Of a DNA stretch of 64,000 nucleotides, positions 26,954 through 62,105 are shown piece by piece (position 1 is the stretch's first letter; each line of letters starts with the position of its first letter). The stretch spans positions 62,001 to 126,000 of the forward strand of contig NZ_JAATOO010000009.1 in NCBI RefSeq assembly GCF_011806575.1. Reading direction: 5' to 3'. The notes beneath the pieces were generated by a model. It was not told the DNA's origin. It searched no databases and was given only the letters and a program-made list of their open reading frames with translations. This stretch comes from Vibrio hepatarius (GTDB lineage Bacteria > Pseudomonadota > Gammaproteobacteria > Enterobacterales > Vibrionaceae). A program made the translations under genes and the position numbers.

Positions 26954-27194
26954 TAAATCTGCTTATTGTCTGTCGTATACACAAAACATGAATTAGTCTG
27001 AATGCAATCTGTCAGTTTCGTTATCTCGATGTGACTAAATCTGACAGGTTGCCCTCAATCGGTTCTGCCCCAAAGCAAGTTAGCTACCGTTTAAGCCTCA
27101 CGTCTCTGAATCATCATTTGGCCTATTTTTCCTAATGCCTGTCAGGCGTCTATAGGATCGCGGGAACATCTCCCCTTGTTTAACGAACACTCAC

Positions 27195-28535
27195 CTAGTA
27201 ACCAAAGTCTTTCACATCAACTTCTAGCTCTCTGACTTGAGAACCTATTTTTTTATGGAAGTGGTAACGAATTTCTTCATCAGCCATATTGGTCAAATCA
27301 AAACTAAAATATTGAACTAAAACCTCTTTCATCTCAGGTATGTCATACTGGTCGAAGTTTGGTACATAACTGGTGTTATATTTGTTGTGGCTAATTTCTT
27401 TGAAAGTGCGAACAAACTTTTTAGGTTTGATTTCTACCCCAAAACGCTTACATAGGCGCAGGACATAATGATCTAATCTGTGGAGTAGCTTTTCATCATT
27501 GATCTCAGCGAAAAAAAATTGCCAACCCTTACATTTCTTCTCAAACACACAGCCAGTGATTCGTAGGTTTAATCGCCATTCTAAAATTTTTAAGCTCTTA
27601 TTTTTAGAGTGCTTATAGCTTGTGAAAATCCCAGCAAGAGAAGCCTTTAACTTTTCAATCGAACCGTTTCTTGCAGAGATATGCTCATTGGTGAATTGAT
27701 ACCCAAGATAATCAAAACCGTTGGCAAGTGAGTCAATTTTTGACTTCTCTGGCACTTTCACAGGGCAGTGTATTTTTAAACCAATATTGCGAAACTTCTT
27801 GATAATGATTTGTGCTAGATCGTGTGCTTGATCAGCAGAACAAAGAACTAATACATCATCAACGTAGCGGTAGCATTTTACGTTAGGCAATTCAGATAAA
27901 AATTTGTCAATGTTTTGGAGGTAGATGGCTGCAAGGATGTTGGAAACAGCCAACCCTTGAGGTACGCCGACTTCACTTGGCTTATCATCCTTTCTCGAAA
28001 CTAGAACTGAAGGGGCAGTGACAGCCGAAAAGATCATGTCTAGTATGTGATCTTGCCTAATGCGCTTTCTCAATTGAGAGCGTAGGTTTTTATGTCTTAT
28101 TGATGGGTAAAAATTCGAAACATCTAACTTAATATAGCTATCAAAGTCACCAGATAAAGCGTGAGCCTTGACATCTTTAATGACATCTTGAGGAAGCGTG
28201 AACGTCACTGATTCTGCAAATCGGTCTTGTAGAAAGTTACACATAGCACGTAATGCAATTCTATCTCTCACTGTAGGGATAGAGATTTCACGAGGGGCTT
28301 TATTTCTCCCTTTAGTCAGCAACTTTAACTTGTACTTGGAAAACGCATACGAACCTTCAATCATTTTACGAGAAATGATTTCAACTTGCGGGTCTAACTG
28401 TTTTCTAAAAGCATACTGATTCATATTGTCTATGCCAGTAGCACCAGAATATACAACATGATTGGAAAAGATTTCTTTTAGATTCTCGTGCCTAAACTCT
28501 TTATTAAATTGGTCTTGTACACGCATTTTATCCAC
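27195..28535 (-). CDS. Reverse transcriptase of a defence-type RT-SLATT system
   Basis: 446 residues. RT motifs in order: basic N-terminal part (KLLTKGRNKAPREISIPTVRDRI, ~70-92), motif A IKLDVSNFYPSI with Asp138, motif B VGVPQGLAVSNILA (~189-201), catalytic YVDD at 224-227, and FDYLGYQF as motif E. The C-terminal ~140 residues are basic and may bind RNA. No maturase X, HNH endonuclease, NAxxH or VTG features are seen, so it is not a group II intron or an evident retron RT. FYPSI and this layout fit the 'Unknown Group' RTs, many of which act in phage defence (DRT systems). Its start overlaps the SLATT gene by eight bases. Base composition is visibly more A/T-rich than the flanks. Confidence 0.9.
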   Translation of the reverse strand: MDKMRVQDQFNKEFRHENLKEIFSNHVVYSGATGIDNMNQYAFRKQLDPQVEIISRKMIEGSYAFSKYKLKLLTKGRNKAPREISIPTVRDRIALRAMCNFLQDRFAESVTFTLPQDVIKDVKAHALSGDFDSYIKLDVSNFYPSIRHKNLRSQLRKRIRQDHILDMIFSAVTAPSVLVSRKDDKPSEVGVPQGLAVSNILAAIYLQNIDKFLSELPNVKCYRYVDDVLVLCSADQAHDLAQIIIKKFRNIGLKIHCPVKVPEKSKIDSLANGFDYLGYQFTNEHISARNGSIEKLKASLAGIFTSYKHSKNKSLKILEWRLNLRITGCVFEKKCKGWQFFFAEINDEKLLHRLDHYVLRLCKRFGVEIKPKKFVRTFKEISHNKYNTSYVPNFDQYDIPEMKEVLVQYFSFDLTNMADEEIRYHFHKKIGSQVRELEVDVKDFGY

Positions 28536-29181
28536 CAGTACAAGTTGGAGTGGATAAGAATAAAGACGAGTTTAATGCAAGCAATATCAGTACTGGCAAG
28601 ACATAGAAAAACACAAGAGTTAACAACCTAGTAACAAAATAAGATACTGCTAAAAACCAGTGATGTGATGTCGGTATTCTAGTAAGAGCTTGTTTTGGTT
28701 GTTGTTTGTTTTCCGAGGTGTCTGAATGGAAATCTTTGCTTACTTGTCTTACGGTGCTGGTACTTGCCCAATACTCTTGGCATAGTGCGATGGCAAAATC
28801 TTTGTCAGTGTGGTTTTCACAAGCATTTAGCTTAGATTCGTAGGTTGTTGATAAATTGGTCAAATCAGCATTTGGCTTGGAGGCTTGGTGCATAATGCTA
28901 TTCAAACTTTCATAACATTCTTTGATTAGGTTTGCTCTTTCCTTAAATGAAAGCCCGTTGATGAATCCTGAAATGCAAAGTACGAGGACAGAATATACAA
29001 CCCAAGAGATCGCTTCGATTCCATTTTGTGGGTTCTTTAGATAATAAACGGATACGGCGACAGAGAAGAATGAATACCAGAGTAGTATTACTTGTGAGTG
29101 AAAGGCGTTAGACAAAAGTCGTTTTTCAGTTTGAATTCGTGCTTTTCTTGTCCACCAAATATTGTCTGCTAAAGCCACCAT
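28528..29181 (-). CDS. SLATT-domain membrane effector
   Basis: 217 residues. The start DNIWWTRKARIQTEKRLLSN and FHSQVILLWYSFFSVAVS match the SLATT family (two-helix effector domain associated with SMODS/SLOG and RT systems; my reading is the SLATT_5 subgroup). Membrane helices lie at ~31-48 and ~57-75; a cytoplasmic helical linker (~80-150) and a third hydrophobic stretch at ~175-208 follow. Predicted role: pore-forming or membrane-disrupting effector, triggered by the RT's product or by phage. ATG preceded by AGGAGA. It is the first gene of the two-gene operon and follows the structured leader 29239-29376. Confidence 0.85.
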   Translation of the reverse strand: MVALADNIWWTRKARIQTEKRLLSNAFHSQVILLWYSFFSVAVSVYYLKNPQNGIEAISWVVYSVLVLCISGFINGLSFKERANLIKECYESLNSIMHQASKPNADLTNLSTTYESKLNACENHTDKDFAIALCQEYWASTSTVRQVSKDFHSDTSENKQQPKQALTRIPTSHHWFLAVSYFVTRLLTLVFFYVLPVLILLALNSSLFLSTPTCTGG

Positions 29182-29224
29182 CTTCTCCTAATGTTGGGGG
29201 TGTGCTTCATAGAGGTAGTTTAGT

Positions 29225-29400
29225 TACAATAAGTTAACACTCCTACTGGAGTAAGCATATCCGAGATACACTAAGGGCGAACCCTTCGAAATTAGTTTCA
29301 CTCTTACTGCTAAGAGTGGACAGCTACTAAGAACTGTCACCACTATGAAACACAGTGTGTATGGTACATTTTCGGAGTTCGAGGCTCAATAATTTCTTGT
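29225..29400 (-). ncRNA. Candidate structured non-coding RNA of the RT-SLATT system
   Basis: The 44-220 bases upstream of the SLATT ATG contain a series of perfect hairpins (minus-strand RNA): GACAG/CTGTC at 29319-29338, CACTCTTA-GCAG-TAAGAGTG at 29299-29318, AAGGG-UUCG-CCCTT at 29273-29286 and ACTCC-AGTA-GGAGT at 29239-29252. The first three are enclosed by long-range pairs: TCCGA (29372-29376) with TCGGA (29260-29264), and ATACACACT (29354-29362) with AGTGTAT (29266-29272). That makes a closed multibranch fold. Several DRT systems use such an RNA as template or cofactor. No Northern-type evidence; ends are approximate. Confidence 0.65.
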
Positions 29401-29568
29401 CACCGTTAAGCTAGTTTTCATACTTTAAGTAATTAAAGGATCACTAATTTAGCAAAATCACTGACTCATTTCTGTCCAATTGTGAGTTATGACACCATCA
29501 GGCCGACTGTATAATCTAGTCGTGGCTAACCAGCGGATGCGTACGAGCGAGTGTGAGTTACTACACAT
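29401..29568. other. Upstream flank of the RT-SLATT ncRNA
   Basis: A/T-rich DNA with a possible minus-strand promoter (TTGCTA near 29453, TACTTA about 18 bases on). No gene seen. It ends at the terminator of the M20 peptidase gene, which is likely to mark the right edge of the inserted system. Confidence 0.35.
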
Positions 29569-29605
29569 AACAAAAGAGCCACATCATTGATGTGGCTCTT
29601 TTGTT
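29569..29605 (-). terminator. Strong terminator after the M20 peptidase gene
   Basis: A perfect 17-base stem beginning AACAAAAGAGCCACATC with an ATT loop and flanking A/T runs; it can serve both strands. Confidence 0.93.
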
Positions 29606-29618
29606 AATGGAGACTAAG

Positions 29619-30725
29619 CTAGTGCGTTAAGTAGTGCTTAACAAACTCAGTCACTTTAACCATATCATCGATAGCGATGAACTCTTCAGTGGTGTGAACT
29701 TTTGCCATGCCGGTTGAAACGTTGATCGTCGTTAAGCCTTTAGCATTGAAGTTGTTTGCATCGCTGCCGCCACCAGTGCCTTTGGTGTAAGGTGACGTGC
29801 CAATCGCTTCGAAAGATGCTTTAACCGCAGCAATATGCGGATGGTTGTCGTCTAGGACGAATGCGTTGTAGGCACGAGTCGATTCGATCTCGACTTCGGC
29901 ACCGTGTTTGGCGGCTGCTGTCTCGAAGGTTGAAATCATGTGTTCGACTTGCGCTTGTAGTTTGCTGTCATTCAATGAACGCGCTTCTGCGACAATTCGG
30001 ATCTCTGGCATGACGATGTTTGTTGCGTTACCACCTTGGACGATACCAATGTTTGCCGTGGTTTCTTCGTCGATGCGTAGCAGCTTCATTTGCATGATGG
30101 CGTCAGCCGCAACTTGAATTGCACTAATGCCTTGCTCTGGTGCTAAGCCAGCATGGGCTGGGCGACCTTTGATCGTCGCAACGATCTTTTGCTGACCTGG
30201 CGCTGCATTGACGATAGTGCCAATTGGACCGCCAGTATCAAGCACGATCGCTTTGTCTGCGCTGATGTAGCTCATATCGAAATGTTGTGAACCAAACAGT
30301 CCGCCTTCTTCATGTACCGTGAAAGCAATTTCAATCGTCTTATGCTCAAGGTTCTCGGCTTGAATACAACGCACGGCTTCGATGATCGCGGCGATACCGG
30401 ATTTGTCGTCGCCACCAAGAATCGTATTGCCTTTAGAGCGAATAATGCCATCTTCGATGACAGGCTCAATGCCTTTGCCCGGTGTAACCGTGTCCATATG
30501 ACAGCTTAATACGATGCTGTCGTCTAACTTGCCTTCTAGGCGAGCGTAAATGTTGAAACCATTCGATACTTCTTCGGGTACTGGAAGCTTGTGTACGGTG
30601 AATCCGAGTTCGCCAAGCTGCTCTGCAAGAGCTTCGCCAATTTGTTTCTCATCACGGGATTCACTGTCGATTTTTACTAGCTTAATAAAGTGTTCAACTA
30701 AGCGTTCACGATTAATTAGGGTCAT
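29619..30725 (-). CDS. M20-family peptidase, tripeptidase T-like
   Basis: 368 residues from the ATG at 30723-30725, which has AGAGGT upstream; a reading longer by 16 residues lacks family similarity. Metal-site motifs: SCHMDTV (His76, Asp78), GGDDKSGIA (Asp106) and VHEEGGLFG (Glu139/140), with a dimerisation domain in the middle and GGSDANNF near 330. It resembles PepT-like M20 enzymes that cleave small peptides. It is alone and has a strong terminator. The promoter lies in the 520-base gap before hpd, transcribed divergently. Confidence 0.88.
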   Translation of the reverse strand: MTLINRERLVEHFIKLVKIDSESRDEKQIGEALAEQLGELGFTVHKLPVPEEVSNGFNIYARLEGKLDDSIVLSCHMDTVTPGKGIEPVIEDGIIRSKGNTILGGDDKSGIAAIIEAVRCIQAENLEHKTIEIAFTVHEEGGLFGSQHFDMSYISADKAIVLDTGGPIGTIVNAAPGQQKIVATIKGRPAHAGLAPEQGISAIQVAADAIMQMKLLRIDEETTANIGIVQGGNATNIVMPEIRIVAEARSLNDSKLQAQVEHMISTFETAAAKHGAEVEIESTRAYNAFVLDDNHPHIAAVKASFEAIGTSPYTKGTGGGSDANNFNAKGLTTINVSTGMAKVHTTEEFIAIDDMVKVTEFVKHYLTH

Positions 30726-60680: not shown

Positions 60681-62105
60681 TTAAGATACTAGCTTTTGAA
60701 CGTATTGGTATACGGATTTTAAAATAGCCATCTTCTTTTCATCACTTCCATGTTCGTGAACTAAGTTTTCCAAATTGAGCATATACTCTTCAATACGACT
60801 TTCGAAGTACTCGCGACAGTGCATAGCCCAGCGTTGTTGCTCAGTTTCGTCCAAAGTCCACGGGAAATTTCGGGCGCGGTAGCGGAATAGAAGTGGTGCG
60901 ATTCGCTGGTCATTAAACGAAATGTCCAGTGCGGCTAGATTGTTTGGGTCAGTTTCACGGATGATATCCATTGACGCTTTGTCTGCGGGAGAGAAAAAAC
61001 CGTCATAGAGTTGAGTGTCAACGTCATTGCTGCCCTCATACTCTCGCTCGATGCTGTATAAGCCCTGCAGCTTTTCACGAACTTCTGGATTCTGGCGCAA
61101 GATTGCCAAATTCTTTAAGCATTGCTCGCGGTTGATACCAATGTTTTCTGCGTTCTCTGCGGTTAGCGTCTTAGCCGGAGCGAGAATAGGGCACTTATTC
61201 AAGTGAACCAGTTTAACAGGGACTGGTAGCTCACCTTCTGCCAACTCACTATGTTTGGTGTATAGACGCTCGTGCAATTGCTCGGTCGTCAAATCGAGGA
61301 GTGGTTGAGGGTCTTTGGCCAAATCCACCGTGATGACTGCATTTTTATTGGTCGGATGCCAAGCCACCGGCACAATCCAACTGGTGTAGTTGCATTCACG
61401 ACCTAACATGCCTGATACGTGCATCAACGGCGTCATATTGACGATGTCGATAAGCTCATTCAACTTGCGTTTATGGCGCATATTGAGGAAATAGTCGAAC
61501 AGTTTTGGCTGTGCCGCTTTTAGCTTTTTCGCCATCTCAATAGTGGCGATAACGTCCGCCATTGCGTCGTGCGCATTTTCGTGTTCAATACCGTTGGCAA
61601 CCGATAAGTGTTCAAGCTTAAAGCTGATAAAACCTTCTTCGTTTTCTGGCCAGTTGATCCCTTCAGGGCGCAAGGCATGGCACGCACGCATGACATCCAG
61701 CAAATCCCAGCGAGAGTTGCCGTTTTGCCAGCTCCACGCGTACGGGTCAAAGAAGTTGCGGTAACAGGTGTAGCGGGTGACTTCGTCATCAAAGCGAATG
61801 CTGTTGTAGCCAAGACTCGTTGTATTTGGTGTCGCCAACTGCTGATGGATTTTGGCAATGAACTCTGGCTCAGACAGACCTTTTGTTTGCGCGGTTTGTG
61901 GCGTGATTCCAGTAATCAGCGCCGCTTCTGGCGACGGTAGATAATCAGTTGGCGGTTGGCAGTAGATGACAAGAGGTTCACCGATGATATTAAAGTCCTG
62001 ATCGGTGCGAACGCCTGCAAACTGACACGGACGGTCTTTAGCAGGGCTAGTTCCCCACGTTTCGTAATCAAAAAAGAAAAACGTAGGTTGGTGCTCTTGT
62101 TGCAT
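60681..62105 (-). CDS. sbcB: Exodeoxyribonuclease I
   Basis: 474 residues, the size of ExoI. DEDD nuclease domain: FFFDYETWGTSPAKDRPCQFAG (FDYET), LGYNSIRFDDEVTRY, and GIEHENAHDAMADVIATIEMAK; SH3-like and C-terminal parts follow (HVSGMLGRECNYT, FRYRARNFPWTL). It degrades single-stranded DNA 3' to 5' in recombination and mismatch repair. Single gene. Confidence 0.95.
   Translation of the reverse strand: MQQEHQPTFFFFDYETWGTSPAKDRPCQFAGVRTDQDFNIIGEPLVIYCQPPTDYLPSPEAALITGITPQTAQTKGLSEPEFIAKIHQQLATPNTTSLGYNSIRFDDEVTRYTCYRNFFDPYAWSWQNGNSRWDLLDVMRACHALRPEGINWPENEEGFISFKLEHLSVANGIEHENAHDAMADVIATIEMAKKLKAAQPKLFDYFLNMRHKRKLNELIDIVNMTPLMHVSGMLGRECNYTSWIVPVAWHPTNKNAVITVDLAKDPQPLLDLTTEQLHERLYTKHSELAEGELPVPVKLVHLNKCPILAPAKTLTAENAENIGINREQCLKNLAILRQNPEVREKLQGLYSIEREYEGSNDVDTQLYDGFFSPADKASMDIIRETDPNNLAALDISFNDQRIAPLLFRYRARNFPWTLDETEQQRWAMHCREYFESRIEEYMLNLENLVHEHGSDEKKMAILKSVYQYVQKLVS

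Follow-up and report, generated by a model that had tools for sequence, protein, structure and literature searches.

The window, that is, the whole 64,000-nucleotide stretch of Vibrio hepatarius DNA that was analysed, carries on its minus strand a structured non-coding RNA (ncRNA), a gene for a SLATT_5 membrane protein and a gene for a reverse transcriptase (RT), in this order (Table 1). The SLATT_5 gene lies directly upstream of the RT gene and overlaps its start by 8 bases. In a PADLOC search the RT matched the RT_UG17 profile over residues 4-444 (E 3.2e-165), and the next-ranked named DRT type was Drt3a (E 3.4e-35). The YVDD motif was placed by alignment at residues 224-227, and the final residue of the protein is Tyr446. 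The SLATT_5 protein scored 134.7 bits with the NCBIfam model, against a cut-off of 60. Both protein families and the C-terminal Tyr are established at the locus: a UG17-type RT with YVDD stands next to a SLATT-domain gene. It was reported in 2021 that 82% of UG17 RTs co-occur with SLATT_5 (PMC8934634), and a preprint of October 2025 named the set of UG17 RT, SLATT and upstream ncRNA DRT10, a phage defence system (PMC12632851). According to that work, tandem-repeat DNA is copied from a 137-nt RNA that lies upstream of SLATT, the DNA is primed on a C-terminal Ser in Eco3 and likely on Tyr444 in Eco1, and repeat addition is driven by an A-B-A′ pattern that follows stem-loop 5 directly on its 3′ side (PMC12632851).

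Table 1. Features of the locus, in positions of the window.
Feature	Positions	Strand	Evidence
Putative mobile unit, ~2.42 kb, holding only ncRNA, SLATT and RT	27063..29489		92-97% identity in six loci; flanks differ
UG17 (DRT10) reverse transcriptase, 446 aa, C-terminal Tyr446	27195..28535	-	PADLOC RT_UG17 3.2e-165; alignment
SLATT_5 membrane protein, 217 aa	28528..29181	-	Pfam 1.1e-22; PADLOC RTasSLATT 3.7e-56; NCBIfam SLATT_5
DRT10-type ncRNA, ~152 nt, ends inferred from homologues	29202..29353	-	fold z; covariance models R1, R2, R3; pair changes
SL1 3′ arm, outer stem: ACC, U, CUAUGAAGCAC	29202..29216	-	swap tests; 11/14 pairs two-sided
Probable template UAACU-UAUUG-UAACU (A-B-A′)	29222..29236	-	A-B-A′ test alone and over ten loops
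SL5 hairpin ACUCC-AGUA-GGAGU	29239..29252	-	4/5 pairs two-sided
SL4 hairpin AGUGUAU/AUAUGCU	29254..29272	-	5/7 pairs two-sided
SL3 hairpin AAGGG-UUCG-CCCUU	29273..29286	-	4/5 pairs two-sided
Conserved linker AAACUAAUUUCG, core CUAAU	29287..29298	-	ACTAAT invariant in a 16-sequence MAFFT alignment
SL2b hairpin CACUCUUA-GCAG-UAAGAGUG	29299..29318	-	4/8 pairs two-sided; recovered on the unfitted alignment too
SL2a hairpin GACAG/CUGUC, loop with CTTAGTAG	29319..29338	-	5/5 pairs two-sided
SL1 5′ arm, outer stem: GUGUUUCAUAG, U, GGU	29339..29353	-	swap tests; 11/14 pairs two-sided
Candidate promoter of the ncRNA-SLATT-RT operon: TTGAGC 29384-29389, 17-nt spacer, TACCAT 29361-29366	29361..29389	-	4/6 per hexamer

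An AlphaFold2 model of the RT, built on 29 sequences, had a mean pLDDT of 91.6 and resembled group II intron RTs and DRT9. Tyr446, with a pLDDT below 50, lies in the disordered tail of the model, which comprises the last four residues. The tails of 44 distinct homologues ended in Ser in 32 cases and in Tyr in 6 (38/44), and a Ser or Tyr stood within the last three residues in 43/44. By analogy with the published enzymes, DNA synthesis would probably be primed on Tyr446. Other assignments of the RT were rejected. The NCBIfam Drt3a model gave 101.7 bits (cut-off 200), the group II intron RT/maturase model TIGR04416 gave 140.5 bits (cut-off 300), and retron_St85_RT, the one retron family scored, gave 46.3 bits (cut-off 235). 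DRT9 was set aside on the absence of a poly-U template loop, the loop here being GUUAACUUAUUGUAACUAAA, and on a PADLOC Drt9 match of only 1.7e-17.

Homologous loci were drawn from whole genomes, GTDB contigs, plasmids and IMG/VR. A tblastn search against phage records returned 61 records, all below 60% identity, 2 of which cover 80% of the query. In L014-L017, which belong to one genome family, frames of 547-711 aa match the UG17 profile over most of the length (E 1e-111 to 5e-97); they perhaps encode a related RT with an extra domain.

A preliminary description of this DNA had proposed a multibranched ncRNA at 29239-29376. Folding beyond chance was borne out, since the minus strand of this stretch folds with a z of -3.6 (1/200 shuffles as good); the plus strand folds less well (z -2.85, 1/200 shuffles). 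The four hairpins of that proposal, including the one with the UUCG loop, are present on the minus strand as SL2a, SL2b, SL3 and SL5, and all of them covary across homologues. The proposal holds for a structured RNA and not for its ends. Upstream of homologous SLATT genes an outer stem, SL1, keeps its place while its sequence varies and encloses five smaller stem-loops; the interval 29239-29376 covers this stem and the template only in part or not at all. With the ends corrected to 29202-29354, the RNA folds with a z of -5.6, and 0/200 shuffles were as good. One of the smaller stem-loops, SL4, had been overlooked, its 5′ arm having been assigned to a long-range helix.

That earlier structure, in which the RNA is closed by the long-range helices TCCGA/TCGGA and ATACACACT/AGTGTAT and recurring CTTAG words serve as the template, has in our judgement almost no chance of being right. 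Its arms are indeed complementary, its words are clustered and its stretch folds better than shuffles. For the helices, 7 copies of the mobile unit were compared; the tool counts 6 distinct ones, and the window and L002 differ by a one-base end offset, which leaves 5 variants. Over this stretch the window and L002 are identical, and only they have TCCGA/TCGGA intact; one of its pairs is broken in L004, L005, L019/L021 and L022, that is, in every variant unlike the window, and the helix shows no two-sided change. The second helix (ATACAC/GTGTAT) is invariant, again without any two-sided change. Neither forms in the minimum-energy fold of 29190-29376, in which AGUGUAU has AUAUGCU as its local partner; the 5′ arms of both fall in or next to promoter-like DNA, outside the RNA as the homologues define it. 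SL1 and SL4 covary and exclude both helices. When compensatory changes, the check proposed with that structure, were looked for in homologues, the hairpins and the corrected outer stem had them and the two long-range helices did not.

The recurring words are found on the minus strand as described: CTTAGTAG (29324-29331) in the SL2a loop, CTTAGCAG (29307-29314) in the SL2b stem-loop and CTTAGTGT (29268-29275) at the SL3-SL4 junction. All three lie outside the template loop, the one used by Eco3, and the word in SL2a has changed in L005 and L022. Across the window as a whole, CTTAGYRK occurs 12 times versus 12.4 expected, so there is no excess; only the local clustering of the words is unusual. 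The idea of a template copied more than once is predicted by DRT10 homology, and it is the choice of the CTTAG words for this role that is not retained.

To follow the RNA in other loci we used three covariance models. R1 was trained on five sequences ~97% alike and searched against 80 sources totalling 490,624 bases, which took in the whole window. Apart from the unit's own copies, it recovered the complete RNA at 12 further loci, near-duplicates included (E 1.6e-11 to 1.4e-4), each time just upstream of SLATT, and gave weaker matches in the right place in L035, L043, L055, L049, L072 and L048 (E 0.019-0.23). Copies of the unit itself also scored on their antisense strand (E 0.003-0.016), and there were a few other matches (E 0.69-2.3). 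R2, run over 56 sources, matched L048, L024, L035, L055, L049, L043 and L072 at E 0.0011 or better, none of which was in its training set. R3, whose training set already included two Eco3-type loci (L043 and L072), was applied to the window plus 31 other sources, and 18/31 were matched at E <1e-3 (several near-duplicates), including L068. No RNA match was obtained with R3 in 12/31 sources, some of which have SLATT (e.g. L025, L027 and L070), and L054 reached only E 0.28. No Rfam family was found on the RNA. One match fell below the Rfam threshold (Streptococcus sRNA SpF25, 36.6 bits versus a gathering value of 48); it lies at 29568-29657 on the minus strand, covers a terminator-like hairpin (29574-29600) at the end of the neighbouring gene and is probably due to chance.

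The outer stem was analysed by swapping its arms between subfamilies. With eight subfamilies and windows cut by eye, the native total was reached by 1/40,320 permutations, the native assignment itself. In a second round the windows were fixed, with a conserved motif and the SLATT gene as reference points, and 49 loci were reduced to 19 subfamilies, 5 loci without the anchor motif and the loci without a recognisable SLATT motif being dropped. The native mean was -28.8 versus -20.1 kcal/mol, and 0/200,000 random permutations reached it. When 14 sequences were fitted to R1, 33/44 pairs had two-sided changes and 97.1% of the cells paired, versus 75.5% in shuffles and 35-50% in slid versions; with 18 sequences the figures were 37/41 pairs and 94.6% of the cells, all these pair counts being inexact, as model-fitted alignments lean towards the model and the near-identical L003 and L010 were aligned differently in SL1-SL2. 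An A-U to G-C compensatory change in SL2a is seen in L005. RNAalifold on an unfitted MAFFT alignment of 16 diverse RNAs, in which the outer stem was misaligned, recovered SL2b, SL3 and SL5 only, with 6/16 pairs two-sided, in SL2b and SL5. A conserved, covarying RNA in the same place upstream of SLATT is established at this locus.

Because blastn against E. coli genomes found no match with the RNA, the whole operon or two homologous RTs, L068 stood in for the published E. coli loci and was taken as the Eco3 anchor through its template. L068 was found by R3 at E 1.8e-5, and its loop reads CAAUGAUUCCAAU, which is the published Eco3 template followed by A′. If the first C is counted as nt 107, the numbering implied by the published mutant numbers (PMC12632851), nt 1 falls at L068 position 1601, which is the start of the R3 match. 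The SLATT/RT region of L068 is broken.

At the window locus the loop after SL5 carries an A-B-A′ pattern, with A = UAACU at 29232-29236, B = UAUUG at 29227-29231 and A′ = UAACU at 29222-29226. The probable template lies in this loop 3′ of SL5, just outside the interval 29239-29376, and its predicted product is single-stranded (CAATAAGTTA)n. For the window alone, the pattern had a p of 0.045-0.053 with its position fixed and 0.106 with the position unfixed. Over ten non-redundant loops the mean length of A was 4.0 versus 2.45, and 0/5000 shuffled sets reached it; in a chimera control 326/100,000 permutations reached the native mean. The position-constrained search, which was prompted by the published template position and covered 23 loops reduced to 10 non-redundant ones, gave a Fisher p of 0.0018, versus 0.025 for the unconstrained search, in which the loop was located in 43/49 loci (22 distinct). 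Individually, L035 (with an A of only 2 nt), L041 and L054 were unremarkable (p 0.86, 0.34 and 0.54, respectively).

Close relatives vary within this loop. In L019 and L021 one additional A separates B from A′, which gives a 10- or 11-nt unit (with a 3-nt A at 10 nt), and in L022 A′ is UAACC, four bases being kept. These are natural variants for the study of template realignment, without designed mutants. A DRT10 RNA with another template phase or length, which would realign on AACU or fewer bases or produce imprecise repeats as Eco1DRT10 does, is improbable at this locus: the 5-nt identity UAACU sits at the place of Eco3's CAAU, directly after SL5 and GU. Such a reading would accord with Eco1 and Eco2, which use an A/A′ of only 2 nt, Eco1 being imprecise (PMC12632851), as well as with the Tyr at the end of the RT, like that of Eco1, and with the 10- or 11-nt unit allowed by L019/L021. 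With the UAACU reading, the Tyr-ended side of the DRT10 family gains a member whose predicted repeat (CAATAAGTTA) is precise and can be tested. The window's own genome nowhere contains two copies of CAATAAGTTA in tandem, so that repeat reads would be diagnostic.

The candidate promoter is a weak match and ends 7 nt before position 29353. A stricter promoter scan (cut-off 9/12) reported none on the minus strand here. Across 32 loci the -10-like hexamer was best right before the RNA (mean 4.56/6, with no window over 20 nt further upstream exceeding 3.97). The homologues suggest that the RNA starts near 29353. Its 3′ end lies ~20 nt from the SLATT start codon, and the scan reported no minus-strand terminator between the two. 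Both observations would fit a cis-acting mRNA leader that regulates SLATT-RT and is not a template. We regard such a leader as very improbable, given the covariance link to L068, a locus with the published Eco3 template, and the A-B-A′ enrichment over the loops.

We conclude that the stretch at 29239-29376 is in all likelihood part of the ncRNA of a DRT10 (UG17) anti-phage system, because of the RT_UG17 match (3.2e-165), the SLATT_5 gene upstream of the RT, the covarying RNA, the A-B-A′ enrichment and the Ser/Tyr of the RT tails. The structured RNA upstream of SLATT, with its outer stem and smaller stem-loops, is homologous to the Eco3DRT10 RNA, and the A-B-A′ pattern lies directly 3′ of SL5 (p ~0.05 for the window alone, clear over the ten loops). 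Structure and template are now placed where the homologues put them. DRT10 is already a described kind, as is its link to telomerase, and the locus adds a further member. No account of this locus was found in the literature on DRT10, UG17 RTs or Vibrio SLATT/DRT, as covered by titles and the beginnings of abstracts. Vibrio is absent from the main text of PMC12632851; the locus or a sister may still be in its supplementary tables.

RNA, SLATT and RT are probably transcribed from one common promoter. On the model of the published system (PMC12632851), the RT would bind the RNA and use its own final residue, probably Tyr446 at this locus, to prime DNA. It would copy the short template UAACUUAUUG in the loop 3′ of SL5 and halt at SL5, which is the probable template boundary by analogy with SL5 of Eco3DRT10 (PMC12632851). 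The new DNA end would then leave A and re-pair with A′ (UAACU), and repetition of this cycle would yield single-stranded (CAATAAGTTA)n; the repeat DNA may act on the SLATT membrane protein. In this scheme the binding of RNA by the RT, priming, repeat synthesis and phage defence are carried over from the published DRT10 (PMC12632851).

The three components are contained in a compact unit (27063-29489), which is 92-97% identical in L002, L004, L005, L019, L021 and L022. Its flanks differ between loci, the right flank being common to L019 and L021 only; the unit has the same ends in different flanks, with no recombinase inside. Close relatives with a named host come from Photobacterium lucens, Photobacterium jeanii, Vibrio thalassae, where the copy is partial, and a plasmid of Pseudoalteromonas carrageenovora. 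The recurring ends are TGGACAGAAATGAG... on the left and ...CTTGCTTTGGGGCA on the right. Right-end-like words followed 20-60 nt later by left-end-like sequence occur in L094, L097, L004 and L022, an array-like arrangement; a shuffled control of 65,073 bases contained 3 left-like and 2 right-like words. The DRT10 operon might be the cargo of a recombinase-less ~2.4-kb cassette, the enzyme being supplied elsewhere, in an undescribed marine gammaproteobacterial cassette system; we consider this rather unlikely. Copies of 34-74 nt of the unit's left end were also observed elsewhere in same-genus genomes (L093, L094, L096-L099 and L101). In the wider neighbourhood, the genome's only match to PF08411, the ExoI/SbcB C-terminal family, lies 31 kb away at 60681-62105 on the minus strand. 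E. coli strains that express UG17 have been reported to depend on sbcB as an essential gene (PMC12483538).

The closest known systems are Eco3DRT10 and Eco1DRT10 (PMC12632851), with which the locus shares the RT family, the SLATT_5 partner, the order ncRNA-SLATT-RT, an outer stem with smaller stem-loops, the A-B-A′ loop directly 3′ of SL5 and a C-terminal Ser/Tyr, here Tyr as in Eco1. The Eco3DRT10 template is CAAU-GAUUC-CAAU, whereas the locus has its own 10-nt template, UAACU-UAUUG-UAACU, in the same place; Eco3DRT10 has four smaller stem-loops and an RNA of 137 nt, and here there are five, with SL2a as the extra one, and ~152 nt. Unlike Eco3/Eco1DRT10, the locus forms part of a compact 2.4-kb unit that carries no recombinase. 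DRT9 (UG28) is alike in its Class 2 UG RT, its upstream ncRNA and, sometimes, a SLATT gene (PMC12483538), and DRT9 chains rank 6, 7 and 9-12 among the 50 fold matches listed of 557; however, DRT9 copies a poly-U tract into poly-dA, and the loop here has no run of more than two U. DRT3a (UG3) also makes RNA-templated repeats, in its case dinucleotide repeats (PMC13174585), but it requires a second RT, DRT3b, and uses the template ACACAC. Eukaryotic telomerase is alike in its working, with templating and alignment segments and a template boundary element (PMC12632851), although DRT10 is protein-primed, bacterial and SLATT-linked. No telomerase entry is among the 50 fold matches listed of 557 (E up to 0.001), and the locus is not classed as a telomerase.
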